Below are positions 26,590 to 41,984 of a stretch of 64,000 nt of DNA, in pieces. Location: the NCBI GenBank assembly GCA_017620395.1, contig JAFZQJ010000027.1, positions 1 to 64,000 on the forward strand. Direction: 5' to 3'. The position numbers were made by a program, and so were the translations under genes. The stretch comes from Clostridia bacterium. Its GTDB lineage: Bacteria > Bacillota > Clostridia > Oscillospirales > RGIG8002. Positions within the stretch are counted from its first letter, which is position 1. Each line of letters starts with the position of its first letter. The notes under the pieces are model-generated. The model ran no database searches, was not told the DNA's origin, and saw nothing but the letters and a program-made list of their open reading frames with translations.

Positions 26590-29500
26590 ATGAAGAAATT
26601 ATTGTCAGCACTGATACTGTTGTGTATGATCGCCGGCGTTTTTGCGGGATCGTTCACGATAACTGCGTCGGCTTCGACGACGAAAGCCGAACTCGAACAG
26701 AAACTTATCGAGGCTCGCGAGCTTTATTTCTCCGGCGGAAGCGAGCAGACGAGAAAGTATCTCTACGGTAAGATCCTTGCCGCGGATTCCGTTGTGCTGG
26801 ATGATTCCGCGGCGCAGGCGGAGATAGACGACGCCTACAGCCGCCTTTCCGCGGCGATCGAAGGTTTCGTGCCGATGGAAATATCCGACAGAATCGACCT
26901 CAACGGCGTCGATAAGTGGACGGGCGAGCAGATCGAAAGAATGGGACATTTCGGTATTGCTTCGCAAATCGTCACCGACGTCAAGCCGGCCGGCGCGTCG
27001 CAGTCGCTGAAGCTGACGGCGTGGGACAGTTACGTTATGTTCATCAACCGGCCCGGCGAAGACGGCGCTTATTCGCCGTTCGGAGTCGAGATGTATTTTT
27101 CCGACGGCCTTGCAATGTGGCTGGCTTCGGATAACTACGGCGCGGTCGGGAGCATCGAACTTTACGTCGGTAAAATGACCGCGGAATCGGAAGAAATGCT
27201 TTCGGTCTACGATATCCCCGTGACGAAAGAGGGCTACGTCTACGTTCCGTGGGAAATCTTCTATCCCGAAGTAACGACTCCCGATGCGAAGATAGACCTT
27301 TCCGGCGCGATGAACCTCATTGGCTTTGCCATCAACGGTGAAGCGGGTGCGAGCGTTTATATTTCCGACGTCCACGCTTTCAAGGAGACGATCGAAACCG
27401 ACGACCGCGTATATGCGGAGGATCCTGTCGCCGCGTTTGATGAAATAGACAACGACCACGTTTACAAGATATCCGATCCCGCGACCGGCAAGGTCGTCGC
27501 CTGGGGTCCGGAGCTTACGGAAACCGTCTTCAAATCGCAGGCTTCCAGCACCAGACTGGACTGGACTTCATCTGATCAGTCCTTCTCGCTCAGCGACAGC
27601 AACAGCTGCGACGTTACGCAGCAGTGGCAGATTTACAAGATGCTGCGCAGCGGCGATTACAAGCTTATCAACCAGGGTACGTCCGCGTGTATGACACGCG
27701 GCAGGACTCTCGGCATTATCGAAAACGGCAGTCTTACGCTTGAACGGCACGAGGATCTCGACAACTCATATCAGAAGTGGAGCGTGACCGAGAGCAACGG
27801 CAGGTTTGTTTTCAAGAGCGGCAGCAAGTATCTCGGCGTAAGCTCCGGAAAGCCCGCGCTCGTCAGCTCCGCTTACGAATGGGACGTTATCAAGTGCATA
27901 TCGGACGAATGGGTAGAGGTCTGGGGCGACGAATTCGACGGAAACTCGATAGACCGCACGAAGTGGAACGTCGCGAACGGTAAGGTGAGAGGCGACAGCG
28001 AGCCCGCGACATTCCGCGACGACCCCAACAATATCTACGTCAAGAACGGCGAGCTCGTTATCAGAACCGTAAAAGAGGATTACGGCAACTATCACGCTAC
28101 CTCCGGTTATATGGATACGCAGGGTATCTACGGCGTTACCTACGGCAAGATCGAGATGCGTGCCAAGCTTACGGACGGCAAGCGTTCATGGCCGGCTTTC
28201 TGGTCGATGGGGCAGTACGGCAACTGGCCGTATAACGGCGAGCTCGATATGATGGAGTTCGATATAAGCGATAACGCCAGCGATCCGTACGCGATATACG
28301 GCACTAACCACTGGTTCGCGTATCAGGGCAACCTTAACGGCAACGATACGAGCAACGATTATATGCAGCACGTTGCGAAGGGAACTACGATATATAACGA
28401 GAACAAAGAGCCCTACGCTGATGATTACCACACATTCACGGTAGAATGGGATGAAACGCAGGCGCGCACCTACGTCGACGGCATGATGTATATGTCGATG
28501 CTGCTGAAGACGGACGAGCTCCGCTGGGGTTTCGGCGACAATCCTCACTATCTGATCGTCAACGTTTCCACCAAGGGGCCGGGCAACAATCAGATATACA
28601 GCGATATGGCGGACGAAACGTTTATGTACGTCGATTACGTCCGTGTTTACAAGCGCGCCGGCGAAGTTTCCGACGTTACCGCTTATGACGACGAAGTGCT
28701 CAATTCGTCGAAGGTTGTGACGGGCAGCGGCTGGATGTGCGCTCTCGACGCTTCTCCCGACGGCAGATACGTCGCGTCTTCCGACAGAGGCACGGTTTAC
28801 CTTACCGACACGTCGGATAACTCGCTCATCAAAAGCAATTCCTGCGGATACAACGAGATCTCCAAGATACTCTATTCCGACGACGGCTCCAAGATCGCCG
28901 TAGCGTCGCGCGGGGATAAGGTGGTTATTCTTGACAGCCCCGCGCTGACGAGGAAAGCTACCGGTTCTTTCCCGCACGTATACGTCGAGGCTGTTGATTT
29001 CAGCAAAGACGGCAGCAAGCTATTCGCCGGAGGCAGGATCAGCGGAGAGGCGGACAGCTCGATCCCGAGCAAAGACGTTTCGCAATATGTTTATATAATG
29101 GATACGGCGACCGGCGCCGTTACGGAAGGCCCGTTTACCGGAACCAACATAAGGACTCTTAAGGTTTCGCCGGACGGCGCGAAGCTCGCCGCCGCCTGCG
29201 CAAACGGAAAGATAATCGTATACAGTATCAACGGCGGCGCGCTCACGGAATACGCGGTCTTTACCGATCATGTCCGCTGCGCCAGAGGTCTTGACTGGTC
29301 TCCGGACGGTCTGCTGCTCGCGACTACCGACGAGGGCGGTAAAATATTTGTATACGACGTCGATGCAAAATCGATGAAGTATGAAGCCGCGAATGTCAGC
29401 AGAGCCTCGATCCGCACCTGCGAATTCTCTCCGGACGGCAGCAAGCTGCTTGTCAGCGGCAGCGCTGACGGCGGCAGACTGTTTGACGCCGCGACCGGCA

Positions 29501-31854
29501 AGCTGATTTCCGTAATGGGCGGTTTCGGTCAGGCGGTCCCGACCGCGCATTGGTCTCCCGACGGGAATATGCTTCTGCTCATGAGCCTGGAGGGCTACGG
29601 CAGACTGTATACCGCAAACGGCGAATATCTCCGCACTCTCAACGGCAGACAGGAGGGCACCTACGCTATCCACAACGCCGTTTTCGCCGCCGGCGGAACA
29701 AAGATATACGGCATAACTTATCATAACAAAGCCAATACGCTTTGCTGGGATCTCGGTACCGGTAGCCTCGATACTTCTGAGCTCGAAGCGGCGCTTTGCG
29801 ACGCGGCGGTCGCCAACCCCGCAGATTACTCCGCCCGCGCATGGGGCGTGCTCGAAGGCATACGCAATAAATACAAGAAGCTTACCCGTATTTACACCGC
29901 CGATCAGGCCGACGTTACCGCCGCTGCCGTAACCGTACGCTGCGCCCTCGCGCTGAAGGACAATGAGATCTTCGGTTTCAAGCCGTGGCAGACCTCCGAT
30001 ACGTCTCTTATGACTGTAACGACCTGTCGTGCTACGATGCGCGATACGTCGGATGAAGGAGTTACTCACAATTCGCTCTGCGTTTACTCCACGCGTACAA
30101 AGTGGGAGTTCAATAATAAGACCGGGGACGAGGTCATAAAGAATCCGTTTGTAGCCGATATGCGCGACTACAGCGGACTCAGATTCAAAACATACTCCAC
30201 GAAAGCGGTAAACGACAGCGATATTCTCATCGGTTATACCGGCGAGGACGGCGATACGATCTACAAGTTCAACGTCGGCGCGATAGATACCGCCAAGATG
30301 GAAGTCGTCGCCCCGTTCGATCAGTTCGAGCGCGTCAGCGGCGACGGGCAGCTTGATCTTTCAAGACTTGAGATCATAGGCTTTACCGGTGCGGGCAAGT
30401 CCACTACCGGCGTATACTACTACGATCTGACCGCGTATCAGGATGAGGGCGAAATCCCCGTCGTCTTCGGCGTTGAAGAAGGCGGAGAATACGATCCGCC
30501 CGTCAGAATCACGTGGAGCGCCGGCAGGGGAGAACTGAACGGCCGCGACGTCGGATACGAAGTGACCGTCGACGAACCCGGCGACTATTTCCTGAAGGTT
30601 ATCAACCTCGATAAAACCGTTACAGTCAGTTTCCGTGTGCGCGAGGGCGGAATGCCCGGCGATCTCGACGGCGACGGAGAAATAACCGTTTCCGACGTCC
30701 TGATCTGTCTCAGAGTCGCGGCGCGCCTTATGACGGTCGACGCTGACTGCGACGCCAACGGCGACGGAGAGGTGGACGTGGCCGATGCGCTCACGCTGCT
30801 TCGTATCGCGCTCGGTATCGTTCCTCAGGGGCACGGCATACGCGGTATAGCGCTGATATGCGACGCTCCCGTCGACGAATGGGACGCTTTCACCGGCGCG
30901 GCGTATAAAGCGATCGACGATTTCGGCGCAAAGAATCATATTTATTGCTCCACGTATTATCCGCTCGGCGACGATTTCGATAACGGCCGCCTGATCGACG
31001 ACGCTTCGGCCGAAGGGTGCGACGTCTTCGTTGTGCTCGGCTTTATGATGACCGATCTCGTTGCGGAAAAAGCGCCGCAGTATCCGGACGCGAAGTTCAT
31101 CTTGATCGACGTTTCGCGCGACGAGCTGCTCGAAGCGGCGGGGGAGAACGGCTTTGACTACGGTAACGTTCTCTGCCTGACCTATCGCGAGGAGGTCGCC
31201 GGATTCCTTGCCGGCTATGCGGCGGTTAAACTCGGATACAATAATCTCGGTTTCATCGGCGGAATGCCCATTCCCGCCGTTATGCGCTACGGTTACGGAT
31301 TCCTGCAGGGAGCGGATGCCGCTTCGCGGGAACTGAGCATAACGGCGAACGTGAAGTTTGCCTATGCGAATTCCTTCGCTCCGTCGGAAGAGCTGACGGA
31401 AAAGATGTGCGCATGGTACGACGGCGGCGTGCAGGCGGTATTCGCATGCGGAGGAGGCATCTGCCTCTCCGTCGCCGAAGCCGCGCAGGAAAAGGGCGGC
31501 AAGCTGATCGGCGTCGACTCGGATCAGTCCGAGATGTTTGACGAAGGACTCGTCCTGACGTCCGCGGTAAAGGGCGTTTATCCGTCGGTTTTCAACAGCC
31601 TTGAAACGATAGAGGAAGGGAAGTGGGCCGACTGCGCCGGCCGGCACTTCATTCTCGGAGTCAACGACCCGCAGAATCCGGAGAACAACTTTGTCCAGCT
31701 GCCGTATGAGACAACTCAGTGGAATCAGACCTTCGGGCAGGAAGACTACGCGCAATTGATCTCGCTCCTGTGCGAAGGCGAACTGACCGTTTCCGACGAA
31801 ATCGACGCCGCGCCGTCCGTTACTGCCGTGAGCGTCGAATACGTCGAGTTTTGA
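26590..31854 (+). CDS. GH16 protein B: CBM-like modules, GH16, beta-propeller, dockerin, BMP domain
   Basis: This 1754-residue secreted protein has a signal peptide (1-28), a FIVAR-like helical stretch (30-95), and a beta-sandwich CBM-like module (100-267). A QxW trefoil (285-435) and GH16 (438-690) follow, the latter with catalytic Y-N-G-E-L-D-M-M-E (Glu551, Asp553, Glu556). Next come WD40-like repeats (703-1057), a second FIVAR-like stretch (1061-1120), a second CBM-like module (1127-1290), an Ig-like module (1292-1355) and a type I dockerin (1357-1413). A C-terminal BMP/PnrA-type periplasmic-binding domain (1415-1754; I-A-L-I-C-D start, F-I-G-G-M-P-I-P-A-V core) ends the protein. BMP proteins normally are separate lipoproteins of nucleoside ABC importers, so the fusion is odd. 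The ATG follows GGGAGG by six bases. Module borders are approximate. Confidence 0.88.
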   Translation: MKKLLSALILLCMIAGVFAGSFTITASASTTKAELEQKLIEARELYFSGGSEQTRKYLYGKILAADSVVLDDSAAQAEIDDAYSRLSAAIEGFVPMEISDRIDLNGVDKWTGEQIERMGHFGIASQIVTDVKPAGASQSLKLTAWDSYVMFINRPGEDGAYSPFGVEMYFSDGLAMWLASDNYGAVGSIELYVGKMTAESEEMLSVYDIPVTKEGYVYVPWEIFYPEVTTPDAKIDLSGAMNLIGFAINGEAGASVYISDVHAFKETIETDDRVYAEDPVAAFDEIDNDHVYKISDPATGKVVAWGPELTETVFKSQASSTRLDWTSSDQSFSLSDSNSCDVTQQWQIYKMLRSGDYKLINQGTSACMTRGRTLGIIENGSLTLERHEDLDNSYQKWSVTESNGRFVFKSGSKYLGVSSGKPALVSSAYEWDVIKCISDEWVEVWGDEFDGNSIDRTKWNVANGKVRGDSEPATFRDDPNNIYVKNGELVIRTVKEDYGNYHATSGYMDTQGIYGVTYGKIEMRAKLTDGKRSWPAFWSMGQYGNWPYNGELDMMEFDISDNASDPYAIYGTNHWFAYQGNLNGNDTSNDYMQHVAKGTTIYNENKEPYADDYHTFTVEWDETQARTYVDGMMYMSMLLKTDELRWGFGDNPHYLIVNVSTKGPGNNQIYSDMADETFMYVDYVRVYKRAGEVSDVTAYDDEVLNSSKVVTGSGWMCALDASPDGRYVASSDRGTVYLTDTSDNSLIKSNSCGYNEISKILYSDDGSKIAVASRGDKVVILDSPALTRKATGSFPHVYVEAVDFSKDGSKLFAGGRISGEADSSIPSKDVSQYVYIMDTATGAVTEGPFTGTNIRTLKVSPDGAKLAAACANGKIIVYSINGGALTEYAVFTDHVRCARGLDWSPDGLLLATTDEGGKIFVYDVDAKSMKYEAANVSRASIRTCEFSPDGSKLLVSGSADGGRLFDAATGKLISVMGGFGQAVPTAHWSPDGNMLLLMSLEGYGRLYTANGEYLRTLNGRQEGTYAIHNAVFAAGGTKIYGITYHNKANTLCWDLGTGSLDTSELEAALCDAAVANPADYSARAWGVLEGIRNKYKKLTRIYTADQADVTAAAVTVRCALALKDNEIFGFKPWQTSDTSLMTVTTCRATMRDTSDEGVTHNSLCVYSTRTKWEFNNKTGDEVIKNPFVADMRDYSGLRFKTYSTKAVNDSDILIGYTGEDGDTIYKFNVGAIDTAKMEVVAPFDQFERVSGDGQLDLSRLEIIGFTGAGKSTTGVYYYDLTAYQDEGEIPVVFGVEEGGEYDPPVRITWSAGRGELNGRDVGYEVTVDEPGDYFLKVINLDKTVTVSFRVREGGMPGDLDGDGEITVSDVLICLRVAARLMTVDADCDANGDGEVDVADALTLLRIALGIVPQGHGIRGIALICDAPVDEWDAFTGAAYKAIDDFGAKNHIYCSTYYPLGDDFDNGRLIDDASAEGCDVFVVLGFMMTDLVAEKAPQYPDAKFILIDVSRDELLEAAGENGFDYGNVLCLTYREEVAGFLAGYAAVKLGYNNLGFIGGMPIPAVMRYGYGFLQGADAASRELSITANVKFAYANSFAPSEELTEKMCAWYDGGVQAVFACGGGICLSVAEAAQEKGGKLIGVDSDQSEMFDEGLVLTSAVKGVYPSVFNSLETIEEGKWADCAGRHFILGVNDPQNPENNFVQLPYETTQWNQTFGQEDYAQLISLLCEGELTVSDEIDAAPSVTAVSVEYVEF

Positions 31855-31866
31855 AGGGATGACGCC

Positions 31867-32220
31867 GTGATATACGCGCACATAGGTGAAAACGTCTTGG
31901 AGATAGAGCTTGCGAATAACTCGTCGGCGGAAGCCTTCGCCGACCTGCTTTCGCAGGGCGACGTAACCGTAGAAATGCACGATTACGGCGGCTTTGAGAA
32001 GGTCGGTCCGCTCGGCGCGACGCTTCCGAGAAACGACGAAGCGATAACCACTGCGCCCGGCGACGTCATTCTTTACCTCGGCAATCAGATCACGATATAC
32101 TATGACGTCAACTCCTGGACCTTCACGCGCCTCGGCAGAGTAAGCGGCCTTTCGCAGAGCGAGCTGAAAGCCGTGCTGGGCGGCGGAGAAGTTATCGTCA
32201 GGTTTTCACTCACTCGCTGA
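31867..32220 (+). CDS. Small cyclophilin-like fold protein
   Basis: The 117-residue protein resembles the bacterial cyclophilin-like domain family: a strand-rich N-terminus, L-L-S-Q-G-D-V-T-V-E-M-H-D-Y-G-G-F-E-K-V-G-P-L-G, then A-P-G-D-V-I-L-Y-L-G-N-Q-I-T-I-Y-Y and a G-R-V-S-G-L tail. Such proteins lack proven peptidyl-prolyl isomerase function. It has no signal peptide, so it is probably cytoplasmic. The GTG start is 12 bp after the stop of GH16 gene B, with AAGGG at the stop codon, so the two are likely co-transcribed. Why a cytoplasmic protein is paired with a secreted hydrolase is unclear. Confidence 0.75.
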   Translation: MIYAHIGENVLEIELANNSSAEAFADLLSQGDVTVEMHDYGGFEKVGPLGATLPRNDEAITTAPGDVILYLGNQITIYYDVNSWTFTRLGRVSGLSQSELKAVLGGGEVIVRFSLTR

Positions 32221-32287: not shown

Positions 32288-32319
32288 GTAAATAAAAGGG
32301 GCTGCCTTTCAGCAGCCCC
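32288..32319 (-). terminator. Terminator of the minus-strand RNA unit
   Basis: On the minus strand GGGGCTGC, loop TGAAAG, GCAGCCCC, then TTTTATTT. It marks the 3' end of the candidate non-coding RNA. Confidence 0.85.
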
Positions 32320-32655
32320 GTGCGTTGTTAGGTACAATCACAATTAAGAACCTTTCTCATATCCGCAACCTGCGGGACAAGCGGTAAATGTGAGTAACTC
32401 AGGTCTCCTTGGTGATTTCTCCTTTTCGCTTATTTTGGTCTTGTACGTCGACAGTGCGTCTTTGCTTTATTGCCCTAACGGGGCACCGCGGTATCCGCAA
32501 GGGGAGTGACCGCCGTCATTTCGCGTCAGACGGTTTCAACGAGAGCGCCGTCCGCACAACGCGCCGCCGACGTGGCGGTATTTGAGGTGTACATGGGAAT
32601 CGCCCCCTTAACTTTCCGACGAAATATCCCTTCCGGGAGTCCGTCTGTTCTTTAC
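32294..32655 (-). ncRNA. Candidate structured non-coding RNA, about 360 nt
   Basis: The 730-bp gap between two GH16 genes holds a complete minus-strand unit: consensus promoter (32690-32662), about 360 nt, intrinsic terminator. The RNA is rich in local stems: TCCC-GGAA-GGGA enclosed by GACG/CGTC, CCGCC/GGCGG, CGCGT with GACGG pairing to CCGTC and ACGCG, GCGGT/ACCGC, TGCCC/GGGCA, and CCGCA/TGCGG inside CTCA/TGAG. It lacks the tmRNA acceptor end, RNase P and SRP cores, so I cannot name it. One 22-codon open frame with AGGGGG eight bases before ATG lies at 32594-32526; a dual coding/RNA role is possible. The rest of the intergenic gap (32700-32949) is AT-rich with no feature I can support. Confidence 0.6.
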
Positions 32656-32661
32656 GCTTAT

Positions 32662-32690
32662 ATAATAGCAGGTCATTTCCGAATTGTCAA
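32662..32690 (-). promoter_or_regulatory. Sigma-A promoter of the candidate RNA
   Basis: Minus strand TTGACA (32690-32685), 17-bp spacer, TATTAT (32667-32662). The -35 is a perfect match. No protein-coding gene of ordinary size lies downstream before the terminator. Confidence 0.8.
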
Positions 32691-32949
32691 TAGTTTTTTT
32701 GAAAAAACTTTAATTTTTTTGTACAAAACGCCTACAAACGTTTTCCTCAGCTGTTTGACGGAAGAAAAACGGAGCATTTTTACCGTTATTCCGCTCTTTT
32801 CCGACATATATCAGGCGGAAATATCACCGATCAGTAATAATGTCACAATGCGACAAGAAAATAACATTAGTTTCTGATAATATATATACGAAAATGTGGT
32901 ATTGTGCGCTGTTTTATGCGCTGATCGTAATTATCTCGGAGGAATACTG

Positions 32950-35900
32950 ATGAAAACTGTGAAAAGAATCATTTCAACTGTTTTGTGTCTCGCTTTGCTC
33001 ATTCCCGCGGCGGTAATACCGGCCGCGGCCGTCAGCACCGAAGAGCTTGAGGCGCTGTACGCGACTGCCGGCGCCCTGATTTACAGCGACGGCACTCACG
33101 CTTCGCGCAGGCAGCTCAAAGCCGCTTATGATACTGCCGAGGCTGTGATTTCACAAGGCAACGCTTTGAATTCCGACATTGTCTCCGCGACGTCGCTGCT
33201 CTCCGCCGCGATAGACGGATTTGTCGCCGTGGAAGCGCCGGAAAGACGGGAGATCGCAGGTATCGCCGCATGGGATGCCGCGACTGTTTCCTCCTTTACA
33301 GACACCTCCGGATGCGCGGTCTTCTTCGGTGAGGATGCCGACCGCCGCGCTGCCGTCAAGGTCGTTACGGCGGGGAAGGACGTCGCGTATTTCTCCAACG
33401 CTGCCTCCGACGCCGCGATAGACGGCGCTTCGGTTTTCACCGGTGACATTACCGACACCGCCGGTCTGCGTTTCCGTACAAGCTTCAACGATCTTTCTCT
33501 CGTCGAGAGCGTCAGCGTCTCCGTCGGAGTCAGGAGCGCCGACGGAAGGAAGACCTATACCGCCGTCGGCATCCCGGCCAAAAACGGTTACGTTGCCGTC
33601 GACTGGGAGTTCTTCTATTCCGATTACGATGCGATAGGGACCGGAGTCGACCTTGCGAACCTAAATTACGTTGCGTTCGCGTTCGAGGGAGTAAAGCCCG
33701 GCTTCATCGGCCTCGTTTCGGATCTCCACTGCTTTACCGAAAACATACTTGCCACCGAAAGGCCGGAGTACCGGGAGGTCAAAGCCGCTTCGATAATCTC
33801 CGGCAACTACTATAAAATCGTCGACAGCAACACAGGTCTCGCGCTTACGCTTTCGGAGCGCGTAACGGATACCGAGACGATGACCGCGACCGGGTATGAA
33901 AACCGCATAGTCAACAAACAGTCCGGTCTTTCCGTAACGATGGAAGCGAGAAAAGAGGATCCGCGGCAGGAGTGGCAGATCTACCGCCACAATGACGGCA
34001 CGTTCAGGATCATCAACAAAGACAGTTCGCTCGCGCTCAGCGCCAGCTATTATGTTCTCAGCTACACAATCGACACGTCCGTACTGAACCTCAGCGATAC
34101 CGCGCAGGAATGGAGAGTAGCAAGATCGTCAAACGGTTTCAAGATTTCCGTTTCGTCTGCGAGCGCGTATTATATGAATTACAGCGGCGGAAACCTGAAA
34201 GCGTCCGGCGTGCAGCAGGTTTGGGACGTCTATGAATGCGTCCGCGGCGAATGGAATCAGGTTTGGAACGACGAGTTCGACGGCGACTCCATCGACCGCA
34301 GCAAGTGGACCGTATACGATGCTAAAAACCGCGGCGACACCGAGCCGGTCTATTTCCGCGACAACGAAAACAACGTCTGCGTCAGTGACGGCGACCTTAT
34401 CATACGCACTAAGCGCGAAAACTACCTCGGCTACCCGACGACCGGCGCGTATCTGACCACCGAAGGGCATTATTACACGTCCTTCGGAAGGTTTGAAATG
34501 CGCGCGAAGCTGGCAGTGGGCGCGTGGATCTGGCCTGCGTTCTGGCTTCAGGGCGCTCCTCCTTCCAACTGGCCGCAGAACGGTGAAATCGACGTTATGG
34601 AGCTTGTCGGCGGCGGCAAAGAGGATTCCAAGCTGTACGGGACCTTCCACTGGCTCTCGGACTACGCGGACGGCAGCAGGGAGTTCGTCAAGGGCGTCGA
34701 ATTCTATAACAAAAACAACGTCAGCCTCGGCGACGATTACCACACCTACGCCGTTGAATGGGAACACGACCAGATGCGTATCTACTTTGACGGTATGCAG
34801 TATGTATCCCTGAATCTGACCTCCGACAGCGAACGCTGGGGCTACGGCGATCTGCCGCATTATATTACTCTCAACACCTCGATCAGAGGCCCCGGGAACG
34901 ATGAGATTTACCCTGATACCGCGGACGAATCGGAGTTTATCATTGACTATGTGCGCGTATCCAAGCGCTCGGGTGATATGTCCGCTTCCACGGAGACCGC
35001 TGATTCCGCGCCGATAGAAGGGCAGAAAATATACGCAGGCATAATCGACGATGTGAACGTAGCGGCTTCGCCGGACGGCAACTTCTTCGTCGTCACCAAC
35101 CGCTACGGCGACGTGAACCGGTTCAACGCCCGCACCGGCGAAAAGCAGAGTGCGGACGTAAACGACAGTACGGTCTTCTCCGCGCTCAAATACTCTCCGA
35201 GCGGCAGATTCATTGCCGCGGGTTCGAGGATGAGCGGACTTGTCATTTATAAGAATTCGGATTTGTCAAGCAAATCCCGTGCGACCGTGAACGGGCTTTA
35301 CTTCGAGTCACTGGCGTTTTCCGCCGATGAAAGCACTATCTACGCAGGCGGCAGAAACGACAACCAGGCCGGTGGCGCGTCAGATAACAAGTATTTATAC
35401 GCCTTCGGAACGTCGTCGGGCTCCCAGCGCGGCAAGGTGTATATCGGCTCCGACGTAAGAAGCATAGCCGTTTCCGATGACGGAAAGTATATCGCTGCCG
35501 GAACTTCCTCCGGAAAGATTTACGTCGTCGACGCGGATACTCTTGCGATAGAAGGCGAATGCGAAATGGAGGCGGTTGTCCGCAGCCTTGCTTTCATTCC
35601 GAGCAGCGATCGTTTTGCCGCTTCGGACGAGGCGGGTAATATAAAGGTGTTCGACGCTGAAACGCGCGGCGTTGTGATGACTCTCGATAACCCGGACGGC
35701 GCGTCCGTCTCATCGATAGAAATATCGCCTGACGGCAGCCGCCTTGTCGCGACTTCGACCGACAATAACGCAAGGCTTTTCGACCTCGGCAGCGGACGTC
35801 TCATCCAGCTGCTCGACGGCTTCACTCAGCAAACCACCGCCGCGAAGTTCTCCCGCGACGGCAACCGCATCGTAGTTTCCTCTCTTGACGGCACCGTCCG

Positions 35901-37431
35901 CGTTTACAGCGACTGCGGCGGACTGCTTTACGTTCTCAATGTGACCGCCGGAACGAAGAAGGGGAACAGCATCGCTGACGTTGCGATCTCCGGCGACGGG
36001 ACATCGGTAATGGCGGTGCCGATACAGAATAACGACAGCGTTTTCTTCTGGACGCTGCCGGGGATGGCGGATAAGACGCCTCTTTATAACGCGATAAACG
36101 CCGCGTCCGATATCGACTATTCCGAATATACCCACGAGAGCGTGGCGGCGCTGCGCGAAGCGATGGAGAGCGCGAACGCGCTGCTCCGCGGTCACAAGGC
36201 TGACGCCTCGGAGATTGCCGCGGGCGTCGCGCTGATAAACAACGCCGCGAACCATCTCGTCAAGCTTCCGGGAGGCGAAGTCGTTCTCAACGGCTTTGAC
36301 GGCTGGACCTCCGAAGACGTCGCGGCCATGAGCTCAACGAGAGCCACGCTGAGCCTCACGTCCTCGTCCGTTTCGATAACGCCGAACGTCAGACAGTCGC
36401 TCTGCATCAGCGCCGGCTCCACTACGACGTGGACTATGTATAACACCACGAGCGGGGGAGAGATTTCCGGCCGCAACCCGTTCGGAGCCGACCTTTCCAA
36501 CAGCGACGGCATCTCGATCTGGGCGAAAGGACTGACGAAGGAACAAAACAACGGCAAGATATTCATCGGCCACACCGGCGTTGAAGGAAGCTTCTTGTTC
36601 AGCGCTTCGCTGCCGACGATAACGACCTCCGGCGGCTATATCAACATACCTTTTTCCGATTTCACATACGTTTCCGGCGAAGAGACGCTTGACCTGACGA
36701 AGCTGAACACCATCGGCTTCTCCGGCAAGGGCGCGAAGGGAATGTTCGTCTTCACCGAGCTGACCGCGTACACCGAAGCGGGCGCAATGCCCGTGGTCAC
36801 CGGCGTTACCGACGGTGCGGCGTATAACATAACCGGCGCCGAAGCTCCGTCCGCGAACTGGGACAGCGGCATGGCGTTCCTCGACGGCGAATACTACGTC
36901 GCCGGAACTCCTATCACGGAAACGGGCGAGCATACGCTCGTCGTTAATAACCACGGCACCGAAGCGACCGTGACGTTTACGGTTACCGATAATACGCCGA
37001 TTCCCGTTATAACCGGCGTCGCCGAACGGCAGGTCTTTGACCTTGCAAACGGCGAGAGCGCGTCCCCCTCGTGGAACGTCGGCTCAGCGACGCTGAACGG
37101 CGAAGCGTATAACGGCGCGGCGATCAACAAGGTCGGCGAGTACACGCTGACCGTGACGAACGGCTATAAAAAAGCCTCCGTGTTCTTCATCGTCGTCGAC
37201 ACGTCCGAGAACCAGTCGGTATACATGAAGGGCGATATGGACAAGGACGGCGAAATAACGGTCGCGGACGCGCTGAAAGCGCTGCGCATCGCGGCGAAGC
37301 TCGCTCAGCAGACCGACGAGGATGTTATGATCGGCGACACGGATAACGACGGCGAGATCACCGTCGCAGACGCCCTCAAAATCCTCCGCGTCGCCGCGAA
37401 GCTCGCGGACGCGGCAAGCCTCGGAGAATGA
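32950..37431 (+). CDS. GH16 protein C: CBM-like modules, GH16, beta-propeller, Ig-like pair, dockerin
   Basis: From ATG 32950 (GGAGG seven bases upstream) the protein has 1493 residues. Its parts are: signal peptide (1-27), FIVAR-like stretch (28-92), CBM-like module (about 95-265), QxW trefoil (275-430; Q-E-W-Q-I-Y, Q-E-W-R-V), and GH16 (435-672) with catalytic N-G-E-I-D-V-M-E (Glu546, Asp548, Glu551). Then WD40-like repeats (692-1037), a second FIVAR-like stretch (1045-1105), a second CBM-like module (1110-1280), two Ig-like repeats (1283-1420) and a type I dockerin (1427-1493) with two D-G-E-I-T-V-A-D-A-L loops. It is the closest relative of protein B but lacks the BMP domain. Predicted role: docked, secreted beta-glucan hydrolase. 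An earlier in-frame ATG at 32896 would bury the signal peptide. Confidence 0.9.
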   Translation: MKTVKRIISTVLCLALLIPAAVIPAAAVSTEELEALYATAGALIYSDGTHASRRQLKAAYDTAEAVISQGNALNSDIVSATSLLSAAIDGFVAVEAPERREIAGIAAWDAATVSSFTDTSGCAVFFGEDADRRAAVKVVTAGKDVAYFSNAASDAAIDGASVFTGDITDTAGLRFRTSFNDLSLVESVSVSVGVRSADGRKTYTAVGIPAKNGYVAVDWEFFYSDYDAIGTGVDLANLNYVAFAFEGVKPGFIGLVSDLHCFTENILATERPEYREVKAASIISGNYYKIVDSNTGLALTLSERVTDTETMTATGYENRIVNKQSGLSVTMEARKEDPRQEWQIYRHNDGTFRIINKDSSLALSASYYVLSYTIDTSVLNLSDTAQEWRVARSSNGFKISVSSASAYYMNYSGGNLKASGVQQVWDVYECVRGEWNQVWNDEFDGDSIDRSKWTVYDAKNRGDTEPVYFRDNENNVCVSDGDLIIRTKRENYLGYPTTGAYLTTEGHYYTSFGRFEMRAKLAVGAWIWPAFWLQGAPPSNWPQNGEIDVMELVGGGKEDSKLYGTFHWLSDYADGSREFVKGVEFYNKNNVSLGDDYHTYAVEWEHDQMRIYFDGMQYVSLNLTSDSERWGYGDLPHYITLNTSIRGPGNDEIYPDTADESEFIIDYVRVSKRSGDMSASTETADSAPIEGQKIYAGIIDDVNVAASPDGNFFVVTNRYGDVNRFNARTGEKQSADVNDSTVFSALKYSPSGRFIAAGSRMSGLVIYKNSDLSSKSRATVNGLYFESLAFSADESTIYAGGRNDNQAGGASDNKYLYAFGTSSGSQRGKVYIGSDVRSIAVSDDGKYIAAGTSSGKIYVVDADTLAIEGECEMEAVVRSLAFIPSSDRFAASDEAGNIKVFDAETRGVVMTLDNPDGASVSSIEISPDGSRLVATSTDNNARLFDLGSGRLIQLLDGFTQQTTAAKFSRDGNRIVVSSLDGTVRVYSDCGGLLYVLNVTAGTKKGNSIADVAISGDGTSVMAVPIQNNDSVFFWTLPGMADKTPLYNAINAASDIDYSEYTHESVAALREAMESANALLRGHKADASEIAAGVALINNAANHLVKLPGGEVVLNGFDGWTSEDVAAMSSTRATLSLTSSSVSITPNVRQSLCISAGSTTTWTMYNTTSGGEISGRNPFGADLSNSDGISIWAKGLTKEQNNGKIFIGHTGVEGSFLFSASLPTITTSGGYINIPFSDFTYVSGEETLDLTKLNTIGFSGKGAKGMFVFTELTAYTEAGAMPVVTGVTDGAAYNITGAEAPSANWDSGMAFLDGEYYVAGTPITETGEHTLVVNNHGTEATVTFTVTDNTPIPVITGVAERQVFDLANGESASPSWNVGSATLNGEAYNGAAINKVGEYTLTVTNGYKKASVFFIVVDTSENQSVYMKGDMDKDGEITVADALKALRIAAKLAQQTDEDVMIGDTDNDGEITVADALKILRVAAKLADAASLGE

Positions 37432-41767: not shown

Positions 41768-41946
41768 GTTATATTGCCGTCTTTGACGGCAGTTATATTG
41801 ATCCTGCGGATCAGTTATATTGCCTCTGCGAGGCAGTTATATTATATTCGCCTTGCTATATTCAAACTGCGCGTAGCGCAATATCACTCGCGAAGCGAAT
41901 ATAACTGGGCGAAGCCCAATATAACTCGCCGCAGGCGAATATAACT
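41767..41946. repeat. Nested hairpin array with AGTTATATT / AATATAACT spacers
   Basis: In 180 bp there are four direct copies of AGTTATATT (starting 41767, 41791, 41813, 41835). They are mirrored by four copies of the exact reverse complement AATATAACT (starting 41880 as AATATCACT, 41898, 41918, 41938). Between successive copies lie short perfect hairpins, each different: GCCGTC-TTT-GACGGC, GATCC-TGC-GGATC and GCCTC-TGC-GAGGC on the left; GCGC-GTA-GCGC, CGC-GAA-GCG, GGGC-GAA-GCCC and CGCC-GCA-GGCG on the right. Left spacers can pair with right spacers, so one strand can fold into a ladder in which each rung is a four-way junction with two small hairpins. The centre (41844-41867) is less regular. 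I do not know a named family for it. Confidence 0.9.
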
Positions 41947-41984
41947 GAAAGAGACCTGATTTGGCGACAAATCAGGTCTCTTTC
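41947..41984 (-). terminator. Long perfect hairpin directly 3' of tRNA-Leu
   Basis: A 17-bp perfect stem (41947-41963 with 41968-41984) and a 4-nt loop (GCGA on the plus strand). It starts one base after the encoded CCA of tRNA-Leu. It probably ends tRNA transcription, though the T-run is short (TTTC). It also continues the outer side of the hairpin array. Confidence 0.65.

Follow-up and report, generated by a model that had tools for sequence, protein, structure and literature searches.

The window, that is, the whole stretch of 64,000 nucleotides of Clostridia DNA that was analysed, very probably carries a stand-alone gene for a non-coding RNA on its minus strand, as judged from sequence comparison. 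Our overall reading, to which we assign a probability of roughly 0.5, is that of a structured RNA confined to a single genus of rumen Clostridia, which would be made constitutively and would act in trans through purine-rich segments as a regulatory or scaffold RNA. The unit sits between two GH16 genes (26590-31854 and 32896/32944-37431), as the original prediction had placed it, and consists of the following elements.

32694-32700, minus strand: A-tract immediately 5' of the -35 box, UP-element-like, conserved among the aligned species.
32690-32662, minus strand: sigma-70-type promoter, TTGACA-17-TATTAT, with 11 of the 12 consensus positions and an extended TG -10.
32290-32655, minus strand: predicted non-coding RNA (about 340 nt) with its terminator, found at full length in four other genomes with 84-94% identity to the window copy.
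32298-32319, minus strand: intrinsic terminator stem-loop with a 9-bp GC-rich stem, present in 5/5 species.

The claim of a complete minus-strand unit was borne out: between them, the near-consensus promoter and the terminator enclose about 340 nt that hold no normal gene, and the terminator stem is followed by the T-rich tail TTTTATTT. The start of the transcript, at about 32655, was inferred as 7 nt past the -10 box, and the A-tract before TTGACA may serve as an UP element. Five species retain the promoter (TTGACA, -10-like box and A-tract), the transcript and the terminator alike. Judged by this comparison among five genomes, the unit is a real gene, and there is good support for describing it as an orphan unit that encodes a structured non-coding RNA.

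The search for homologues that had been proposed with the original prediction was done by BLAST over 59 relatives. It returned full-length, single copies in three other genomes of the genus (93, 88 and 86% identical) and no copy in any of the other relatives. The RNA is present in all four genomes of the genus that were examined, plus a fifth, the rumen Clostridia MAG RGIG10334; a conserved pattern of 21-22 nt, run against 85,000 genomes, matched contigs of two of these genomes and of RGIG10334. Pairwise identity of the RNA over the five species is 80-94%. For the RNase P RNA of these genomes the figure is 93-98%; for the adjoining GH16 coding sequence, at the nucleotide level, it is 71-75%, and the intergenic DNA is mostly unalignable.

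When 394 genomes of the order were scanned with a model of each of the two domains, 5' and 3', no convincing match came up, nor did one in 391 genomes of the class scanned with the 3' domain model; distant relatives could be missed, since the scan filters were strict and the models were made from five close sequences. The weak matches outside the genus were set aside: those of model R1 (3' domain; L022 and L023) are short terminator-like hairpins, and those of model R2 (L049-L052) include two sequences, L049 and L050, that resemble coding DNA. The phage and plasmid records held no match to the RNA, and an origin from a phage or plasmid is unsupported. The viral pattern matches have only a motif of 16-20 nt in common with the RNA, with no wider match; one of them (L068) is a phage Shine-Dalgarno sequence before an ATG.

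The structure model of the RNA comprises 61 named pairs in ten helices, which are arranged in three parts.

32618-32645, minus strand: 5' hairpin, GACGGA.UCCC-GGAA-GGGA.UUCGUC, every pair invariant in the five species, with an insertion in the loop in genome G003.
32445-32573, minus strand: predicted central domain, a long-range helix of 14 positions (32573-32560 with 32458-32445) around three hairpins.
32323-32438, minus strand: 3' domain (model R1) with near-invariant AAAUAAGCGAAAAGGAGAAAUCACCAAGGAGACCU, its blocks 96-97% conserved.

Across the five species, 97% of the cells are paired, versus 34-45% after a shift of the partner strand by one, two or three columns. In the central domain, 94% of the cells are paired. 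The 5' strand of its long helix (32573-32560) is invariant, and the 3' strand (32458-32445) varies mostly by exchange of G-U and G-C; a double change from A-U to G-C occurs in an inner hairpin (32554-32548 with 32533-32527). The helices of the 3' domain are AAUCAC/GUGAUU and GAGACCU/AGGUUCUU, and 96% of its cells pair upon re-alignment to its own model. Covariation among the five close sequences is weak: most pairs are invariant, two of the 61 are double-changed, and 21 of 500 shuffles do as well as the real alignment. The support for the structure is only modest, because it was partly derived from the same five sequences. The original prediction had pointed to at least six GC-rich hairpins. 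The RNA of the window does fold somewhat better than its shuffles (z -2.28, 1 of 100). With the terminator removed, however, the z-scores in the five species are -0.4 to -1.9, only slightly better than shuffled sequence, such that the hairpins alone are no proof of a structured RNA. For the structured-RNA reading, the conservation of sequence is the evidence that carries more weight than folding.

The suggestion of a large conserved Bacillota class, for example of the raiA type, is unsupported: the relatives that were found are in one genus only, and the Rfam search, run as had been proposed, gave no match in the RNA stretch at gathering scores and only chance-like ones at relaxed E-values (up to E 10). 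The relaxed match to StyR-143 scored 30 bits versus a gathering score of 176, with an alignment that covers two adjacent terminator hairpins. There was no match in the stretch to the covariance models of ROOL, GOLLD or OLE. That the RNA has diverged from a known large family (raiA/ModT, ROOL, GOLLD, OLE, 6S or T-box) would fit its size and autonomous unit, and also that raiA RNA (RF03072) was not found elsewhere in the genome, in a search whose controls likewise gave no match; given the lack of Rfam matches, we consider it very unlikely. A diverged housekeeping RNA was rejected as well. The genome has its RNase P RNA (G000:C4:14604-14943) and its tmRNA (G000:C6:31642-31991) above the cut-off at other sites, and a 6S-like candidate (G000:C34:66237-66415) at 45.5 bits versus a gathering score of 46.4; the stretch itself has no match to RF00010, RF00023 or RF00013. 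The original prediction was correct to exclude tmRNA and RNase P RNA. Six GGA motifs are invariant in the five species, as might be expected for an RNA that sequesters CsrA in the manner of CsrB or RsmZ. Yet no CsrA was found in the genome, by a search whose control was positive in three named genomes, which makes CsrA binding by the RNA unlikely, and this account has a next to negligible probability. A small mRNA was also considered, on account of one short reading frame.

32526-32594, minus strand: ORF of 22 codons, MYTSNTATSAARCADGALVETV, with SD-like AAGGGGG, start and stop kept in the five species.

The transcript would in that case make a peptide of 22 amino acids (32594-32526) between structured flanks. 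The SD-like sequence is well spaced from the ATG, and the ATG, SD, stop and length are kept in 5/5 species. Against this, all three codon positions differ from the window copy (4/7/5 differences at positions 1/2/3), the codon changes are mostly nonsynonymous (8 versus 3 synonymous), the best-conserved blocks of the RNA lie partly outside the frame, and the 3' 230 nt would be left unaccounted for. The substitution pattern looks neutral, and the frame is apparently no protein gene. No long frame is open in all five species on either strand. We regard the mRNA account as quite unlikely, albeit less so than membership in a known family.

The neighbouring genes raise a further alternative. The RNA has the same position in 5/5 genomes, upstream of and divergent from the ortholog of a GH16-WD40 gene (in the window 32944-37431, with dockerin-like repeats), while the neighbour downstream of the RNA varies. 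The latter is convergent in the window and in genomes G002 and G003, where no co-directional gene lies 3' of the terminator, as a riboswitch or T-box leader would have. With this other neighbour convergent and varying, the RNA is no leader of a downstream gene. In the window the GH16 gene and the terminator of the RNA have an ORF of 117 amino acids (31867-32220) between them; there is no such ORF at this place in G002. The proteins of 26590-31854 and 32944-37431 are both large and apparently secreted, with the unusual architecture of GH16, a WD40-type propeller and dockerin-like repeats, and that of 26590-31854 additionally has a C-terminal Bmp (substrate-binding) domain. Of the 245 genomes of the order that were searched, only those of this genus yielded GH16-WD40 proteins (E below 1e-60). 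A conserved element lies between the promoter of the RNA and the GH16 gene, in DNA that is otherwise poorly alignable.

32819-32847 (elsewhere given to 32880), minus strand: operator-like block of two similar elements (ATATCAC.GATC / TGTCACAATGCGACAAGAA; ATATCAC/TGTCAC), conserved in five species.

The block has a single match within the window and may belong to the GH16 gene, not to the RNA. The RNA could mainly regulate the divergent GH16-WD40 gene, be it by base-pairing with the mRNA or through effects of its own transcription (promoter interference, supercoiling) within the intergenic region that the two share. The linkage in 5/5 genomes, the operator-like block and the confinement of the gene itself to the genus argue for it. 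However, a crude duplex screen with no accessibility term showed no sign of pairing with the mRNA starts of the two GH16 genes, which came 37th-38th among 50 genes of the window, and conservation over the whole length of the RNA is not needed for local interference. We consider this regulation unlikely as the main role of the RNA, if clearly more plausible than a small mRNA.

Two other RNA features were seen. In G002 (C31; L058 628-922) the gene for RNase P RNA is interrupted by about 280 nt near query position 30-38, probably in the P3 stem-loop. The insert carries a palindromic repeat element with partial copies, 77-78% identical, in L058 and L065, and the RNase P RNA of the window genome has a short stem-loop at the insertion site. 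At 41876-41947 of the window, just downstream of a tRNA-Leu, there is an Rfam match to Gut-1 RNA (RF01706), where similar small hairpins stand in a row, spaced by GTTATATT; it looks like an array of palindromic repeats.

In our preferred reading of a genus-restricted structured RNA, the near-consensus promoter would allow the RNA to be made constitutively and in quantity. The RNA would fold into the 5' hairpin, the central domain closed by the long helix, and the 3' domain. The near-invariant purine-rich segments AAAUAAGCG.AAAGGAGAAA and CAAGGAGACC, which are partly paired in the structure model, would contact a protein or the ribosome, and the RNA would act in trans as a regulatory or scaffold RNA. 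The trans-acting mode, bound to protein or ribosome, is a tentative part of this reading, somewhat short of an even chance. A bolder version, a new ornate class of RNA in one rumen genus with its own biochemical role (in an RNA-protein machine or ribosome-binding) and possibly linked to glucan degradation via GH16-WD40, is speculative and in our estimate improbable. If expressed, the RNA would represent a new family missing from Rfam, with conservation within the genus that almost matches that of RNase P RNA, and would show that uncultured gut bacteria of narrow lineages own structured RNAs overlooked by surveys for wide distribution. Small, well defined and next to a conserved gene, it lends itself to functional studies.

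With respect to known systems, the RNA is like RNase P RNA type A and tmRNA in length (about 340-370 nt), both of which occupy other sites of the genome. It is like 6S RNA, itself abundant, in being an autonomous non-coding RNA, and unlike it in that the 6S-like candidate is located elsewhere. The ROOL, GOLLD and OLE RNAs are longer than the RNA described here. It resembles them as a large, intricate, orphan bacterial RNA, but its sequence and structure are different, in keeping with the outcome of cmscan; ROOL was named for its rumen origin (PMC12286853). The raiA motif, or ModT RNA (RF03072), is a stand-alone structured non-coding RNA of Bacillota that is very abundant where studied (PMC11706538). 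Its model has 209 positions and its distribution exceeds 2,500 species, unlike the RNA of the window, which has no Rfam match and was found in one genus only; the likeness is that the latter, too, would be a stand-alone structured non-coding RNA of Bacillota.
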